A stretch of DNA of 64,000 nt. Origin: Mesorhizobium sp. (GTDB lineage: Bacteria > Pseudomonadota > Alphaproteobacteria > Rhizobiales > Rhizobiaceae). Position numbers and translations under genes: made by a program. Of the stretch, positions 10,618 through 34,037 are shown piece by piece. A model generated the notes under the pieces. It did no database searches and had not been told where the DNA came from. It saw only the letters and a list, made by a program, of their open reading frames with translations. Location of the stretch: positions 1 through 64,000 of the forward strand of contig SAQE01000013.1 of NCBI GenBank assembly GCA_004020545.1, written 5' to 3'. How positions within the stretch are numbered: the first letter of the stretch is position 1; each line of letters begins with the position of its first letter.

Positions 10618-11949
10618 GTGTGCGTCAAGTTCTGCAAAAAGGGGCGGCCATATTGCTGGTCATGCGGCTTGGCGTAGAGCGAGCTTCTTGTGCTCGCGCA
10701 GGTCGTCCATGTTGATGTAGCGGTTGGCCTCCATCCAGTTCTCGTTGGTCTCGACGGCGAGCGCCCTGACAAGGCGCAGGCAGCTTTCGGCGTTGGGGAA
10801 GATGCGTACGACATAGGTGCGGCGGCGGATTTCCTCATTGAGGCGTTCGAGCATGTTGGTGGACTTGAGATGCTTGTGGTGCTGGCGTGGCAGGCAAAAG
10901 AAGGTCAGCGTGCGCTCGATGGTCTCCTCCACCCACGTCGTCAGCCTTGGATAGCGGCCCGACCATTTGGCCAGCCATGCGGCGAGATCGGCTTTGGCCT
11001 CGGCGAGATCGCGCCGGTCGTAGAGCCAGCGCAGCTCCTGCAGGCAATCGTCGCCGTGCTTCCTCGGCAGGTGATCGAGCGCGTTCCTGAGGAAGTGCAC
11101 GTAGCAGCGCTGCCAGGCAGCTTCTGGGATCACTTCGCCGATTGCCGCTACGAGACCGGCATGGTCGTCGGACACGACCAACTCGACGCCCTTGAGGCCG
11201 CGCGCCTTCAGCGCGACGAGGAAGTCCTTCCAGGCCGAGCGGCTCTCGCGATTGGCCATCTCCACAGCCAGGATCTGGCGCCGCCCATCCCAGTCGATGC
11301 CGACCGCGATCAGCACCGCCTGGCTCGTGACAATGCCGGCCTCACGCACCTTCTCGTAGCGAGCGTCGAGGATGAGATAGGCAAAGGGCTCCTGAAGCGG
11401 CCGCTCGGCAAAGGCCTTCAGGCTCTCGTCCAGCCGCTTGTTGATGGCCGAGATCGACGAGGCGGAGAAGGCATGACCGCACAGCTCCTCGGTGATCGCC
11501 TTCACCTTGCGGGTCGACACGCCCTGCACATACATCTCCGCAAGGGTGGCCACCAAGGCGCGCTCGGAACGCTGGTAACGCTCGAACAGCTCGGTGGAGA
11601 AGCGACCAGCCCGGTCCTGCGGAACCCGCAGTTCGAGCTTGCCGACACGGGTGACAAGGGTGCGGCCGTAATAGCCAGAGCGATAGCCGAGCCGCTCCGG
11701 CGTTCGCTCGCTCTTCGAAGCACCCAGCGCCTCGTCCATCTCGGCCTCGAGCACCTCCTGCATCACCGCACGGATCACCTCGTGCAATCCATCCGGGTTC
11801 GAAAGCAGAATGTCTTTGACGGCGGCTATGGCGGATTTATCTTCAGTCTTGGTCATGGTGGCGTTCCTTCGCGGGAATCGGTGACGTGAACAATCACCAG
11901 CCTGCCATGACCGCCCTCTCGCAGCGAATTTGCAGAACTCTCAGCACAC
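10618..11949 (-). mobile_element. IS256-family insertion sequence
   Basis: The transposase gene is bracketed by imperfect inverted repeats. The left end reads GTGTGCGTCAAGTTCTGCAA inward from 10618. The right end, read on the opposite strand from 11949, is GTGTGCTGAGAGTTCTGCAA. They match at about 15 of 20 positions. The total length of about 1.33 kb is normal for the family. I see no 8-9 bp target duplication outside the ends, so the element may have recombined with its flanks. It separates chromosome-like DNA on the left from the T3SS cluster on the right. Confidence 0.82.
10660..11856 (-). CDS. IS256-family transposase (mutator type)
   Basis: A full-length 398-residue transposase. The N-terminus runs through EVLEAEMDEALGASKSERT and YRSGYYGRTLVTRVGKLELRVPQDR. 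The catalytic core has ILDARYEKVREAG (first Asp), LVVSDDHAGLVAAIGEVIP (second Asp region) and LERLNEEIRRRTYVVRIFPN (Glu region). WQRCYVHFLRNALDHLP is the classic conserved IS256 block. No frameshift is apparent, so it is probably active. It is flanked by recognisable terminal repeats. Confidence 0.95.
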   Translation of the reverse strand: MTKTEDKSAIAAVKDILLSNPDGLHEVIRAVMQEVLEAEMDEALGASKSERTPERLGYRSGYYGRTLVTRVGKLELRVPQDRAGRFSTELFERYQRSERALVATLAEMYVQGVSTRKVKAITEELCGHAFSASSISAINKRLDESLKAFAERPLQEPFAYLILDARYEKVREAGIVTSQAVLIAVGIDWDGRRQILAVEMANRESRSAWKDFLVALKARGLKGVELVVSDDHAGLVAAIGEVIPEAAWQRCYVHFLRNALDHLPRKHGDDCLQELRWLYDRRDLAEAKADLAAWLAKWSGRYPRLTTWVEETIERTLTFFCLPRQHHKHLKSTNMLERLNEEIRRRTYVVRIFPNAESCLRLVRALAVETNENWMEANRYINMDDLREHKKLALRQAA

Positions 11950-12434
11950 TACCCCGATCCGGATAAGTGCATTCGGGCAAATGTGTCCGCGAACCCTTCG
12001 CTTCCTGCATCCGATTGCTCGCCGGCATTATGCGCGCGGTAACTATCGGATGAGCCACCAATTCGACCATACATGACGATTCGTACTCCTATGTTTCGCA
12101 ACCGAGCTCAAGTTAGCACGGCTGTTCAACATAGGTCGCTTAGTTGACGACTAGCTGACGAGGGCATTCCAACGGCTGCACGAATCAAATCCGCACTGCC
12201 GGCCTCAAAACCTCGGACTGCGCCACGCACCGGCCAGCAGAGGCTGCAAGGTCATGCCCGGAGGACTTGCCGTAGTTGCTGGGTGGCAGATCCGAGGGGA
12301 GTGATTGCCCCAGGCCCGCGGTTGCGCGGTTGGCCTGACAGAGACACTGGGGCACGGATGGCCAGCCGACATTTGCCACTAGCTAGCATGGAGCCAGGTC
12401 AGTTTTGAACTGGGCAGTCGTGGACTTCCAATGA
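11950..12434. other. Non-coding stretch between IS256 and rhcU
   Basis: About 485 bp without a gene I can support. It is AT-richer than the left flank. Other rhizobial T3SS clusters continue past rhcU with further genes, but no homologous fragment was recognised here. The two short ORFs seen have no family resemblance or ribosome-binding site. Confidence 0.45.
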
Positions 12435-20903: not shown

Positions 20904-20935
20904 CTCCTAGGGGGGCAAGCTGACAACAAGCTGAC
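20904..20935 (-). promoter_or_regulatory. tts box upstream of the nolB operon
   Basis: On the minus strand the sequence reads GTCAGCTTGTTGTCAGCTTG followed by CCCCCCTAGGAG. It matches the published tts box plan (GTCAGCTT-GTCGAAAGCT-N-CCCTA) in the first half, the second half-site and the CCCTA end. It lies about 70 bases upstream of the nolB start, a normal distance. TtsI is expected to bind here and activate the T3SS structural operon. Confidence 0.8.
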
Positions 20936-21787: not shown

Positions 21788-21819
21788 TCGTCAGTTTCTC
21801 GAAAGCTAATCCGCTCATG
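21788..21819 (+). promoter_or_regulatory. tts box upstream of nolX
   Basis: TCGTCAGTTTCTCGAAAGCT followed by AATCCGCTCA matches the tts box consensus closely: both half-sites are present, with one change in the first. It lies 200 bases before the nolX ATG. The 19-base core TCAGTTTCTCGAAAGCTAA is repeated exactly at 31549-31567, in front of ttsI. Confidence 0.85.
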
Positions 21820-22020: not shown

Positions 22021-23958
22021 ATGTCGGCCAGCAATCTTTCAACTTTCTACCGCTCAAATTCGCTACAGTCCGCAAGGGGTTGGCCGGGCCTGAAAGTTTC
22101 CCATTTTGCGACCCAGCATCAGCAAAGTGCATCGTGCTTCGAAGCGATGCTGTCCACTTGTGTGCTGGCAAACAAGCCCGGCTCTTTCGCGCAAGGGGAT
22201 CTGCCAACGTCGAATCTTGATTCGACAATGGATAAATTGCGGCAGGACCCTTTGGGCCATCTGGCACCGGATGTCGAATCGACATTGAAGGGCTTGGAGC
22301 AACACCCACTGGATCTGCTGCCGCCACATATGAGGGCGGCTCTCAAGGAGGACCAATCGCAACGCTCCAAGGCGACTGAAGCCCAACATCTGCTCCGCGT
22401 CACCCCGAAGATCGAGCCGGCTCCCAGGCCGAGCCCCGGAATCACGTGGAACGGTGGGTCGCTGACCACGGCTGAGTTGCAGATTGTTGCGGTACTCAAC
22501 CGTCACAAGGACCAATGCCCGCTTAGTTGGAAGTCGTTGACCGAGAAAGCCAATGATCCCTCTACGCCACCGGATCTGAAAGCGGCGATCAAGGGACTGC
22601 AGCAGGATTCGGGACTTTTTTATGCGATTGGCTCGCAGGGCGACGGCCGCTGTGGAGGCAAGATCAACGCCAAGGACTTGGCCGGATTTTCAAACCACCA
22701 CCCACAAGTTGCTGCATTTCAGGAAGCCCAAGCGCAAAGCTACGAGCAGAACTACATACCATCCGACGGCAGCGGAGGTTTGCAGCCTTCGGTCATGACC
22801 TTGAGCGATGCCTTGCGGGAGTTTTACCGGTACTCCGAAAATCTGTCCAAGGACCTGAGTCTGGATGAGTTCAAGAAAATGGTCGGCGGCGAATCGAAAA
22901 ACGGCAAATTTCCGCCCCAGGTCATTGCGGCGGCGCAATATTTCCTCGATCACCCCGATGCTTGGAACCAGTTGTGCGGTGGCTCGAAAGGGAAGATGCA
23001 CAAAGAGGATTTCCTGCAAGTCGCCTCATCGTCGATGAGCCTCACGCAAACTGAGCTGAATACGGTCGAGATGATCAAGGACCATCAGGACACGTTCTTT
23101 GGAAGCGGTGTTCTGACTCGCGACAAACTGGCGAAAATGAAAGACGACAAGAGCCTTGATCCGAAAGTGCGGGAAGCAGCCTCTCAGCTCCTTTCAGATC
23201 CTCTTTTGTTTGGCCTCCTGAACAATTCGATCACGGGCTATAAGACCCATCATAAATTCTTCGACTTTGGCGGCGGGCATACGGTTGATTCCGGCAATAT
23301 CAGCAAAAAAGACTTTGCCCATTTTTGCACAAACATGTCGTCTGCGAACCGCAACGTTCAGCAGCCAATCACCCACGGCGCCCAAACCGCAGAAGAGCAG
23401 AATGCCGTCGCGGACATGAAGATGGGCCTGATGGACCAGCCTGACATTAAGTCAGCCAAAAAGAACGGCGGGGCCGTCATGCACGTCGTCGACTCCGTGC
23501 TCAAAATCGAGACGAAAGTGCTCGACTTGGCGGCAACGGCGGTGGGACTGCTCAGCTTCATTCCGGGCCTCGGACAAGTAGCCGATCTTGCCTCGATGGT
23601 TCTCGAGGCTGAGTCGCAAGCAGCCAATCTCCTGCGTACGGCCATTAACGGAGGCGATATGAAGCGAGCGCTGGAGGAAGCTGGCCTCAATATGGCCGCG
23701 CAGGCGATCGGCCTTATCGCAGGCCCCGAGGTCAAGCTGGCCATTCGAAATGGGCTCGTAAAGCACCTGATGGAAGAGGCCTTGGCGGCAGGCATTGATC
23801 TTTCGGTCTCGACGGCGCAGGACTACGCAGAAGGCTATGTGAATAACCTCCAAGCGCGCCTTGCAGGCGGCCCTGAGCAAAACCTAGGCCTTCCGAGCAT
23901 GCCATCATTCCAGAGTGTGGCAAGCAATGTGCCCTTCGTCGGCATTGCCTTATCCTAG
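22021..23958 (+). CDS. nolX: T3SS translocon/secreted protein NolX (NopX, HrpF family)
   Basis: 645 residues. At least three related segments follow one another, each with a T-x-x-EL helix, a hydrophobic L--DP/HP segment and an acidic DF motif (around LTTAELQIVAVLNRHKD, LSDALREFYRYSENL, LTQTELNTVEMIKDHQD), as in the HrpF/NolX repeats. The C-terminus has hydrophobic stretches (LAATAVGLLSFIPGLGQVA; AAQAIGLIAGPEVKLAI) suited to membrane insertion. There is no Sec signal, as expected for a T3SS substrate. It is somewhat longer than NolX of other rhizobia as I recall it. A tts box lies 200 bases upstream. Confidence 0.93.
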   Translation: MSASNLSTFYRSNSLQSARGWPGLKVSHFATQHQQSASCFEAMLSTCVLANKPGSFAQGDLPTSNLDSTMDKLRQDPLGHLAPDVESTLKGLEQHPLDLLPPHMRAALKEDQSQRSKATEAQHLLRVTPKIEPAPRPSPGITWNGGSLTTAELQIVAVLNRHKDQCPLSWKSLTEKANDPSTPPDLKAAIKGLQQDSGLFYAIGSQGDGRCGGKINAKDLAGFSNHHPQVAAFQEAQAQSYEQNYIPSDGSGGLQPSVMTLSDALREFYRYSENLSKDLSLDEFKKMVGGESKNGKFPPQVIAAAQYFLDHPDAWNQLCGGSKGKMHKEDFLQVASSSMSLTQTELNTVEMIKDHQDTFFGSGVLTRDKLAKMKDDKSLDPKVREAASQLLSDPLLFGLLNNSITGYKTHHKFFDFGGGHTVDSGNISKKDFAHFCTNMSSANRNVQQPITHGAQTAEEQNAVADMKMGLMDQPDIKSAKKNGGAVMHVVDSVLKIETKVLDLAATAVGLLSFIPGLGQVADLASMVLEAESQAANLLRTAINGGDMKRALEEAGLNMAAQAIGLIAGPEVKLAIRNGLVKHLMEEALAAGIDLSVSTAQDYAEGYVNNLQARLAGGPEQNLGLPSMPSFQSVASNVPFVGIALS

Positions 23959-31503: not shown

Positions 31504-31550
31504 ATCCATACCGTGGATGCATTCGATCCAAATAATCGATTTGTTCAATC
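31504..31550 (+). promoter_or_regulatory. nod box (NodD binding site) upstream of ttsI
   Basis: The 47-base site begins ATCCATACCGTGGATG, continues CATTCGATCCAAATAATCGA and ends TTTGTTCAATC. It matches the classical nod box throughout: ATCCA-N-N-GTGGATG, GATCCA-A-AATCGATTT and CAATC. It lies 308 bases before ttsI on the same strand, with no other gene between. NodD with a flavonoid would activate ttsI here, as known in other T3SS-bearing rhizobia. Confidence 0.93.
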
Positions 31551-31577
31551 AGTTTCTCGAAAGCTAACCCTACCCTC
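31545..31577 (+). promoter_or_regulatory. tts box abutting the nod box, upstream of ttsI
   Basis: TTCAATCAGTTTCTCGAAAG continues CTAACCCTACCC. Its 19-base core TCAGTTTCTCGAAAGCTAA is identical to the nolX tts box. Its first bases overlap the last CAATC of the nod box. The CCC-TA end is also present. It is oriented toward ttsI and suggests TtsI acts on its own gene. Confidence 0.72.
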
Positions 31578-31857
31578 TGTGGGAATCGGGCTCTGGGCCG
31601 CGACGCTGCCTTGCGAGCGCAGGGGCTGCACGTAGGAGAGATGATGCAACGAGAAATCGCACGCGGGTTGCTGGCGTCGTGGGTTCGCCGACCGGCGTAT
31701 TTGAGCCCGTCAGTTGGTCCTCACCCGCGCCTATTGCCACCGAGCGACTTGCATGTCCCTCCAACTCGGACCTGTTCCGAGAGATGCGACGAGTTGTGCG
31801 CCGTGTGCTCCGATCAGATGGCCGCCGGTGACGCGTCTCTCTTCGATAGGAGATGAA

Positions 31858-32544
31858 ATGCGAACGCTGCTCGTGGATCATCATGCGGATCTTGCGCGCG
31901 CCATGCGACTTGCGCTCGGGGATGGCGGCTTCGTCGTTGATGTCGTTGGTACTCTGGAACTGGCCTCGAGTGCATTTTCTTGCGCCAGCTATGAAATTCT
32001 CCTGCTGGAATTGGCTCTGCCAGATGGCGATGGCTTGGGTTGGCTGAGGCAGTTGAGGACCCACGGGCATTCAGTTCCTGCCGTCATTATGAGCAGCCTT
32101 AACGATCTCGATAAGCGAATTGCGATCTTCAACGGTGGTGCGGACGACTTTCTGCTCAAACCCGTCTCTACCGATGAGCTTATCGCCAGAATGAGAGCCA
32201 TTCTGCGCCGGGCGTCACAGATGACCGACCTGAGGCTCGTATTTGGCAATCTCAACTTCGATCCGGTCGCCCGGCAGGTTTTCGTTGCTGGGCACCCAAT
32301 GATGATCGCACGTCGCGAACTCTGTATTCTAGAGCATCTGCTTAACCGGGCAGGCCGCATCGTGCCCCGTGCGCAGTTGGAAGATCACCTCTATTCGTTC
32401 AACGACGACGTGTCTGCCAACGCGCTTGAAGTCGGAATCTATCGTTTACGTGGACATCTGACCAGATCAGGTGCAACGCCACGGATCAAGACCATCCGTG
32501 GCATTGGCTACATTCTAGAATTGACTGACGCGTCATCCGCATAG
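31858..32544 (+). CDS. ttsI: T3SS transcriptional activator TtsI (OmpR-type response regulator)
   Basis: 228 residues. TAGGAGATGAA precedes ATG 31858; the longer frame is not needed. The receiver domain has VDHHADLARAM and EILLLELALPDGDG. The normal phosphoacceptor Asp is Glu (about residue 51), and the second acidic-pocket residue is His, as known for TtsI, which acts without phosphorylation. The KPVSTDELIARMRAIL segment ends the receiver. The winged-helix output domain has LCILEHLLNRAGRIVPRAQL and RIKTIRGIGYILEL. It binds tts boxes. rhcC2 and y4xK follow and probably form an operon with it. Confidence 0.95.
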   Translation: MRTLLVDHHADLARAMRLALGDGGFVVDVVGTLELASSAFSCASYEILLLELALPDGDGLGWLRQLRTHGHSVPAVIMSSLNDLDKRIAIFNGGADDFLLKPVSTDELIARMRAILRRASQMTDLRLVFGNLNFDPVARQVFVAGHPMMIARRELCILEHLLNRAGRIVPRAQLEDHLYSFNDDVSANALEVGIYRLRGHLTRSGATPRIKTIRGIGYILELTDASSA

Positions 32545-32570: not shown

Positions 32571-34037
32571 TTGCTGATCCTTCAACATCCTTGCCCTGCG
32601 CTCAATTGGCGGGCGATCGCCATCAAGGTTCCGAGACCTGCAGTGCCCCGTTACCTGGGCCATCTCCTCTGCGCGCTTATTGTGACTTTCCCACTTGGTG
32701 TCGCGGCGCAAAACAAGCAGGACAAAGGCGCGCCGCGTGCGGCTTCGAATAGCATCAATGCCACGCTGACCCTTTCCTCTTCGCTCGGGGAGACCGTTCA
32801 TCTGCCCGCGCCAGCCACGACCATCTTTGTTGCTGACCCGACGATCGCGGATTTTCAGGCACCATCGAGCAAAACAATCTTCGTCTTTGGCAAGAAATCG
32901 GGGCGGACCAGCCTATTCGCCTTGGACGGCAACGGCGAGCCTCTCGCCGAATTGCGTATCGTTGTCACGCAACCGATCGGGGATTTACGCGCCATGTTGC
33001 GGGAGCAGGTCGGCGACTATCCCATCCGCGTCAACTATACGCCGCGCGGCGCAATCCTTAGCGGGACGGCGCCCGACGCAGAGGTCGCCGACACCGCAAA
33101 AAGAGTCACTGAGCAATATCTGGGCGACGGAGCGCAAGTCGTCAACAACATCAAGGTCGCTGGATCCCTGCAAGTTAACCTCAGCGTGCGCGTAGCCGAA
33201 GTCTCACGCAGCGCCATGAAGTCACTTGGCGTCAACCTGTCCGCCTTCGGTCAAATCGGCAATTTCAAAGTGGGCGTTCTAAGCGGAAGCGGTGCAAGCG
33301 CTGGATCTGGTTCAACCCAGGGTGGCGGTACAGCAGAAATCGGATTCGACAACGGTGTCGTCAACGTCAGCGCGGTTCTCGACGCGCTCGCCAAGGAGCA
33401 TATAGCTTCCGTCCTGGCTGAGCCGAACCTCACCGCTATGTCGGGTGAAAAAGCCAGCTTTCTAGCTGGCGGCGAATTTCCCATTCCTGTCCTGCAGGAA
33501 AACAGGCAGGTATCGGTTGAATTCCGTCACTTCGGCGTCAGTCTGGAATTTGTGCCGACAGTTCTCAGCAACAATCAAATCAACATTCACGTAACGCCCG
33601 AAGTCAGTGAACTGTCGACGCAAGGTGCCGTGCAAATCAACGGAATTTCCGTGCCGGCAGTTTCCACGCGCCGAGCCGATACGGTCGTCGAACTCGCCAG
33701 TGGGCAGAGCTTCGCAATCGGCGGTCTAATCAGGCGGAACGTCAACAATGATGTCAGGGCCTTTCCCTGGCTCGGAGAAATGCCGATCCTGGGACCGCTT
33801 TTTCGCTCGTCCTCGTTTCAAAAAGAGGAGTCAGAACTGGTCATTCTAGTTACGCCTTACATTGTAAGACCAGGCTCCAACCCAAACCAGATGAGCGCAC
33901 CTACGGAGCGGGCGGCACCGGCTTTGAACGGAGGGGGCGCTCCGACGAATTCCGTGGCAAGTCCCCCGCGAGACCGCGCTGCTATCCGTGCGGGCGCGCC
34001 AAGCGCCCAGGGCGGTCTCGGCTTCATCATCGAATAG
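32571..34037 (+). CDS. rhcC2: T3SS secretin, membrane-embedded half: RhcC2 (CpaC-like)
   Basis: 488 residues from the TTG/ATG-type start at 32571; the true start may be at MLCALIV-like positions further in, since a signal peptide (GHLLCALIVTFPLGVAAQ) begins near residue 30. Features are a pilus-secretin N-domain (LPAPATTIFVADPTIADFQ), a BON-like segment and the secretin core VLAEPNLTAMSGEKASFLAG, GEFPIPVL, and VELASGQSFAIGGLIRR. PWLGEMPILGPLFRS is the secretin signature. The closest relatives by pattern are CpaC secretins of Flp pili. It pairs with RhcC1 to form the outer ring. Confidence 0.93.
   Translation: MLILQHPCPALNWRAIAIKVPRPAVPRYLGHLLCALIVTFPLGVAAQNKQDKGAPRAASNSINATLTLSSSLGETVHLPAPATTIFVADPTIADFQAPSSKTIFVFGKKSGRTSLFALDGNGEPLAELRIVVTQPIGDLRAMLREQVGDYPIRVNYTPRGAILSGTAPDAEVADTAKRVTEQYLGDGAQVVNNIKVAGSLQVNLSVRVAEVSRSAMKSLGVNLSAFGQIGNFKVGVLSGSGASAGSGSTQGGGTAEIGFDNGVVNVSAVLDALAKEHIASVLAEPNLTAMSGEKASFLAGGEFPIPVLQENRQVSVEFRHFGVSLEFVPTVLSNNQINIHVTPEVSELSTQGAVQINGISVPAVSTRRADTVVELASGQSFAIGGLIRRNVNNDVRAFPWLGEMPILGPLFRSSSFQKEESELVILVTPYIVRPGSNPNQMSAPTERAAPALNGGGAPTNSVASPPRDRAAIRAGAPSAQGGLGFIIE

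Follow-up and report, generated by a model that had tools for sequence, protein, structure and literature searches.

A nod box that runs straight into a tts core in the ttsI promoter of a Mesorhizobium strain suggests possible feedback of TtsI on its own transcription

Introduction

In the standard model, the protein-injection system of rhizobia is controlled by a one-way cascade that leads from flavonoid over NodD to ttsI and from there to the tts boxes. In autoregulated promoters of the OmpR/PhoB family, the site of the regulator lies within its own promoter.

The presence of a nod box before ttsI is described in the retrieved passages of several papers (PMC3973906, PMC4311626, PMC4990936, PMC5793154). 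For ttsI of S. fredii HH103, the passages retrieved from PMC10771577 mention a NolR box besides the nod box, and no tts box. The same passages report that extra ttsI copies cut the expression of ttsI::lacZ under genistein in this strain, and the authors of this 2023 study write that they cannot say how TtsI represses ttsI (PMC10771577). A ttsI::lacZ strain of MAFF303099 exists according to the excerpts of PMC8958295. Within the retrieved open-licence text (figures, in which box positions are drawn, lay outside its scope), neither a tts box in the ttsI promoter nor TtsI autoregulation was seen, save for one ambiguous sentence in PMC4311626.

In the ttsI promoter of S. fredii NGR234 and HH103 (NB18), the distance from the nod box to ttsI is about 290 bases, and a tts-like sequence (TCAGTTTCTCTTAAGGCAA, locus L005:4049, three mismatches) comes after the nod box in the position that the core has in the strain studied here. 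In contrast to the present site, the tts part of NB18 is degenerate and scores 8.5 bits. A second related class is formed by the tts-box promoters of rhizobial type III secretion genes (nopX, nopB and others), with which the present site shares its core sequence, whereas it lacks their fixed A at position 28 with the associated putative -10 element and overlaps a nod box. Like the autoregulated OmpR/PhoB-family promoters, ttsI appears to have a putative site for its own product in its promoter; unlike in that class, this site is joined to that of a LysR-type activator acting upstream, and a glutamate occupies the phospho-acceptor place of TtsI.

Here we analyse the ttsI promoter in a stretch of 64,000 nucleotides from Mesorhizobium sp. 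(contig SAQE01000013.1, positions 1 to 64,000), referred to as the window.

Materials and Methods

Reference tts boxes were taken from outside ttsI promoters and chosen by the core consensus, so that conservation of the core among them is given by construction; position 28, counted from the G of GTCAG as position 1, was not used for the choice. Collapsing at 85% reduced the 51 sites to 40, and removal of one ttsI site of M. amorphae left 39, several of which represent the promoter of one gene across species. Four sites (L097, L172, L147 and L051:19914), all without A28 as judged by eye, were left out by judgement after the listing had been viewed.

As controls, 36 other nod boxes were used, including two beside nodA in the present genome. 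The 1.1 kb in front of ttsI contains none of them; two Bradyrhizobium controls (L076 and L081) are located about 1.6 kb before this gene and may nevertheless act on it.

A scan of genome contigs gave at least 398 TtsI relatives, and 80 loci were kept. The TtsI protein tree contains 43 rows and was midpoint-rooted for drawing only; its promoter labels FULL, WEAK, HALF and NODonly were set by hand. Conservation was calculated as mean pairwise identity in an alignment of ten ttsI lineages.

Results and Discussion

The ttsI promoter is a composite of a nod box and a tts core

The ttsI gene (31858..32544, plus strand) encodes a response regulator with a receiver and an OmpR-type DNA-binding domain that is 80% identical to TtsI of NGR234. 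It is followed by a secretin-like gene at the position of rhcC2 (32571..34037, plus strand), and nolB and nolX (22021..23958, plus strand) lie upstream. The genome also encodes a NodA homologue and one close NodD homologue (68% to NodD2 of NGR234).

Upstream of ttsI, a 47-base nod box (ATCCATACCGTGGATGCATTCGATCCAAATAATCGATTTGTTCAATC) occupies positions 31504..31550 of the plus strand. It shows five mismatches over the 39 constrained positions of what we take to be the strict 47-base nod-box consensus. Compared to a looser form of the nod box it has a single mismatch, and it is the only match to this form with up to three mismatches in the 7-Mb genome. The tts core TCAGTTTCTCGAAAGCTAA begins at 31549 on the same strand and extends to 31567 (the 18 positions used for scoring are 31548-31565), so that the two elements share two bases. 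The promoter of ttsI is a composite in which the nod box runs straight into a tts core; this confirms both the arrangement and the coordinates that an earlier note on this DNA had given. The same note had called the core identical to that before nolX, and indeed TCAGTTTCTCGAAAGCTAA is present exactly twice in the window, at 31549 and at 21791 (21791-21809).

In 100 shuffles of the window no match to TCAGTTTCTCGAAAGCTAA with up to three mismatches was obtained. Scored on an identical copy (L011) against the 39 tts boxes, the ttsI core reaches 25.0 bits, while the boxes themselves give 20.3-32.6 bits in a leave-one-out analysis. The empty shuffles together with this score rule out a chance match. 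The best tts-core score near the end of the 36 other nod boxes is at most 0.5 bits; therefore, the core is no general part of nod-box promoters, a possibility that is ruled out by its absence from all 36 controls including the two beside nodA.

The ttsI site differs from the core consensus GTCAGNTTNTCGNAAGCT by one mismatch, an A instead of G at position 1. The published tts pattern (tcGTCAGcTT-tcGaaAGct), as given in the passage retrieved from PMC6689892, extends further to the left, and by this wider pattern the overlap with the nod box amounts to five bases. The invariant G of GTCAG in this pattern is replaced by A at 31548, and therefore a search with the pattern in that passage would miss the ttsI site (PMC6689892).

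The fused promoter is found in several lineages of TtsI

The exact core of the window was found at the same place in 27 of the 80 loci kept. These are near-copies, and therefore lineages and not loci were counted. In the TtsI tree, a branch with a support of 100/99 sets off a side of 30 rows, comprising Mesorhizobium, Sinorhizobium/Ensifer and Microvirga, to which the fused or decayed-fused promoters belong. This side contains 16 of the 17 FULL rows, all four WEAK rows (S. fredii type), all seven HALF rows and three ungrouped rows, two of which are without the region while the third, M. huakuii 7653R, has the form of M. qingshengii. The 17th FULL row, M. amorphae, lies outside this side, and its nod box and tts box are apart. 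The right arm of the core is damaged in the HALF rows, which comprise Microvirga, Sesbania symbionts and others as well as M. ciceri WSM4083. Since the sister of the HALF rows, M. caraganae, belongs to the FULL rows, the HALF form looks like a decay product of the fused site. A nod box without tts core is present in the M. plurifarium/M. loti UFLA group (four tree rows). In three related loci (L038-L040) the nod/tts region has been lost, and homology to a relative begins only about 250 bases before ttsI.

Of the rhizobia whose ttsI promoters the earlier note had proposed for comparison, Mesorhizobium and Sinorhizobium/Ensifer carry the fusion or decayed forms of it. In the Bradyrhizobium loci examined, no tts core adjoining a nod box was found in the 900 bases nearest to ttsI. 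As several lineages of the TtsI tree carry the fusion, an oddity private to the present strain is ruled out.

At the level of the genus, a sequence with at most one mismatch to CTTNTCGAAAGCTAACC is present in 80 of 146 genomes, compared to 22 of 146 for a reversed control pattern. Among 30 listed loci of this type, the sequence immediately follows a nod box in 23 (by eye); 15 of these 23 are accompanied by ttsI as detected by tblastn, seven have a CTTCTTG form without a ttsI match and one lies at a contig edge. The CTTCTTG form as such is found in 11 of the 146 genus genomes.

Some individual loci deviate from these arrangements. In L208-L212, a fused nod-tts promoter with a C to T exchange in the core has been kept before mere remnants of ttsI and rhcC2. 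In M. amorphae (L071:8834-9394), a nod box and a perfect tts box precede ttsI about 500 bases apart, unfused and outside the main group. At L259:1501, a perfect tts box whose positions 27-28 read TA lies about 1.35 kb before another ttsI relative, of which 57 residues were seen; no nod box adjoins it.

The ttsI site lacks the putative -10 element of tts-box promoters

Position 28, ten bases past the core, is an A in all 39 reference tts boxes, and in 39 of 43 when the four left-out sites are restored (by eye). The preceding position 27 is T in 27 and C in nine of the 39 boxes, and position 32 favours T among the 40 tts boxes. The pattern of positions 27-32 fits TAnnnT, as would be expected of a -10 element at a fixed distance from the core. 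At the ttsI site the corresponding segment (31574..31579, plus strand) reads CCTCTG. With CC at positions 27-28 the site lacks the A28 by which, in the present analysis, a TtsI-activated promoter was recognized, and a putative TtsI-dependent -10 is missing here. A TA at positions 24-25 may represent a badly spaced -10 element of this kind. A28 is present at the three other tts-like sites of the window, that is in the box before nolX (21790..21807, plus strand; CA at positions 27-28), in the box before nolB (20918..20935, minus strand; TA) and in a weak tts-like core outside of the reference set (12142..12159, minus strand; TA). The weak site adjoins a gene for a Mutator-type transposase (10660-11856) and is possibly a tts promoter severed from its gene.

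Nod-box promoters show a different layout. A TA starting +12 to +18 after the nod box, a range derived in the present analysis, is found in 29 of the 36 controls, against an average of 6.3 of 36 for windows at greater distances downstream. The ttsI nod box has a TA at +15, and we infer that this is the position of the -10 of the NodD-driven ttsI promoter (31564..31569, plus strand), inside or beside the right half of the tts core.

Both layouts bear on the feedback that the earlier note had envisaged, in which TtsI either locks the system on or competes with NodD or RNA polymerase. If the system were locked on, TtsI bound at the core would activate ttsI from an additional start that depends on TtsI, and ttsI would stay on after the flavonoid has faded. 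The normal orientation of the core and its score within the range of tts boxes are in line with this, as are the T27-A28 found in M. camelthorni, M. alhagi, M. carmichaelinearum, M. caraganae and M. amorphae and the full tts box that M. amorphae possesses about 620 bases before ttsI, apart from the nod box. The ambiguous passage in PMC4311626 ties expression of RhcC2 to an upstream tts box, the promoter being unspecified there; it would fit activation. Nevertheless, we regard such positive feedback as unlikely in the present strain. A28, found in 39 of 39 reference boxes, is missing here and in 13 of the 17 FULL rows, so that with its presence in just four of them most ttsI sites are without the activating layout. 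M. loti 582 has a TAG that is displaced by one base to the right, which brings back the spacing if the count starts from the shifted GTCA (by eye). In addition, NB18 is listed in the retrieved passages of PMC4990936 among the nod boxes induced in an S. fredii ttsI mutant, so induction of ttsI does not need TtsI in this species, and extra ttsI lowers expression in S. fredii according to the excerpts of PMC10771577, an experiment that is confounded as discussed below. In the relatives with T27-A28, locking on is possible.

A possible self-limiting switch

Since the element resembling a -10 at fixed distance is missing, the other half of the proposal, competition with NodD or RNA polymerase, fits the present strain better than locking on. 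We tentatively favour the explanation that TtsI limits its own NodD-driven transcription by means of the composite promoter, and consider this the most plausible reading of the data, with odds a little below even. Flavonoid-activated NodD on the nod box would recruit RNA polymerase to the -10 about 15 bases downstream. Once made, TtsI would occupy the tts core that lies over this spacer and -10 and exclude the polymerase from the NodD-driven promoter, which would amount to negative feedback and, in net effect, to repression of ttsI. With the core positioned over the predicted nod-type -10 and without a -10 of its own, bound TtsI would lie across the predicted -10 used with NodD, and in the present lineage it could not readily take over the transcription of ttsI. 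Both sites, their overlap, their conservation and their placement relative to the two predicted -10 elements are apparent from the sequences compared here.

Residue 51 of TtsI, the phospho-acceptor place of the receiver, is Glu in all 92 loci, many of which are near-copies. The amount of TtsI may therefore be the main control. With a TtsI site joined to the nod box, the master regulator of the protein-injection system would become subject to feedback.

The reporter data from S. fredii HH103 agree with self-limitation, but are confounded by the nod box of the plasmid: the table in PMC10771577 indicates that the plasmid with extra ttsI also carries the ttsI nod box. According to the retrieved text, extra ttsI also lowered syrM, another nod-box gene, while expression of nodD1 was not lowered (PMC10771577). 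Given the plasmid-borne nod box and the lowered syrM in these passages, titration of NodD explains the drop equally well. The fused site is nevertheless a concrete candidate for how TtsI lowers its own expression, the puzzle raised in the retrieved part of that study (PMC10771577). The low score of the S. fredii site (8.5 bits), the induction of NB18 in a ttsI mutant (PMC4990936) and, in the present strain, the TA at positions 24-25 speak against self-limitation.

Some relatives keep a putative TtsI -10, and in these the control of ttsI may pass from NodD to TtsI at the fused site. More generally, the promoter might work as a handover switch in which NodD fires ttsI and TtsI then evicts the polymerase, and the retention or loss of the TtsI -10 decides between a self-sustaining and a self-limiting system; we regard this wider scheme as doubtful. 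If it were true, evolution would have toggled the sign of the feedback on a host-interaction system by a few bases with the fused sites left unmoved. Natural variants that carry or lack the TtsI -10 would be predicted to show opposite feedback signs.

The geometry could also suggest that NodD on the nod box and the adjoining TtsI act jointly and give a stronger promoter when both are bound, as no base separates the two sites and NodD would be bound immediately before a TtsI-driven promoter. Such cooperation requires the TtsI -10 that is missing here, and the spacing is not constant, the core of M. waimense lying four bases further from its nod box (by eye). We therefore consider it quite improbable.

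Conservation of the tts core

Among the ten lineages, the segment 31554-31567 has a mean identity of 0.898, compared to 0.762, 0.738 and 0.735 for segments of the nod box and to 0.504 (31551-31553) and 0.596 (31568-31583) for its flanks; the median over 391 windows of twelve columns is 0.565. It is not the best-conserved piece of the region, as a leader segment near 31785-31800 is higher. The proposal that TtsI could bind its own promoter gains support from this conservation, the 25.0-bit core and the absence of such a core from the 36 nod boxes, all of which is evidence from sequence comparison.

The ungapped core scores at least 20 bits in eight of the 17 FULL rows and only 0.2-7.8 bits in the other nine, because GTCAG in their left half is displaced by one base or altered. 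The right half in these nine rows still reaches 15.6-21.9 bits. For the nine low-scoring lineages, binding of TtsI is uncertain, and an additional function of the right half has to be considered. The right half (TTCTCGAAAGCTAACC) might have been kept for the -10 of the ttsI nod-box promoter, the site being a relic on which TtsI does not act. Loss or shift of the left half in nine of 17 FULL rows would be explained in this way, and AACC after the core, which is variable in other tts boxes, is kept in 14 of 17 (by eye). Moreover, the TAAC part persists in Microvirga and Sesbania symbionts despite a damaged AAAGCT arm, and a core with one changed base persists upstream of ttsI remnants in five genomes of the genus. 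However, a NodD promoter can do without such a sequence, since it is absent from all 36 of the other nod boxes. Conservation also extends to TTCTCG, which lies outside the -10, and the ungapped core is intact at 20 bits or more in the eight remaining FULL rows. We therefore consider the relic explanation rather doubtful and retain self-limitation by TtsI as the favoured one.

The leader of ttsI

The best-conserved segment of the ttsI leader, at about 31784-31801, reaches a mean pairwise identity of up to 0.95 among the ten lineages. An uncertain leader ORF of 70 codons (31644..31856, plus strand) ends one base before the ttsI start codon and has a good ribosome-binding site. A C-terminal stretch like YEYCDELRDFCC is common to this ORF and several relatives, the upstream frames of which differ.
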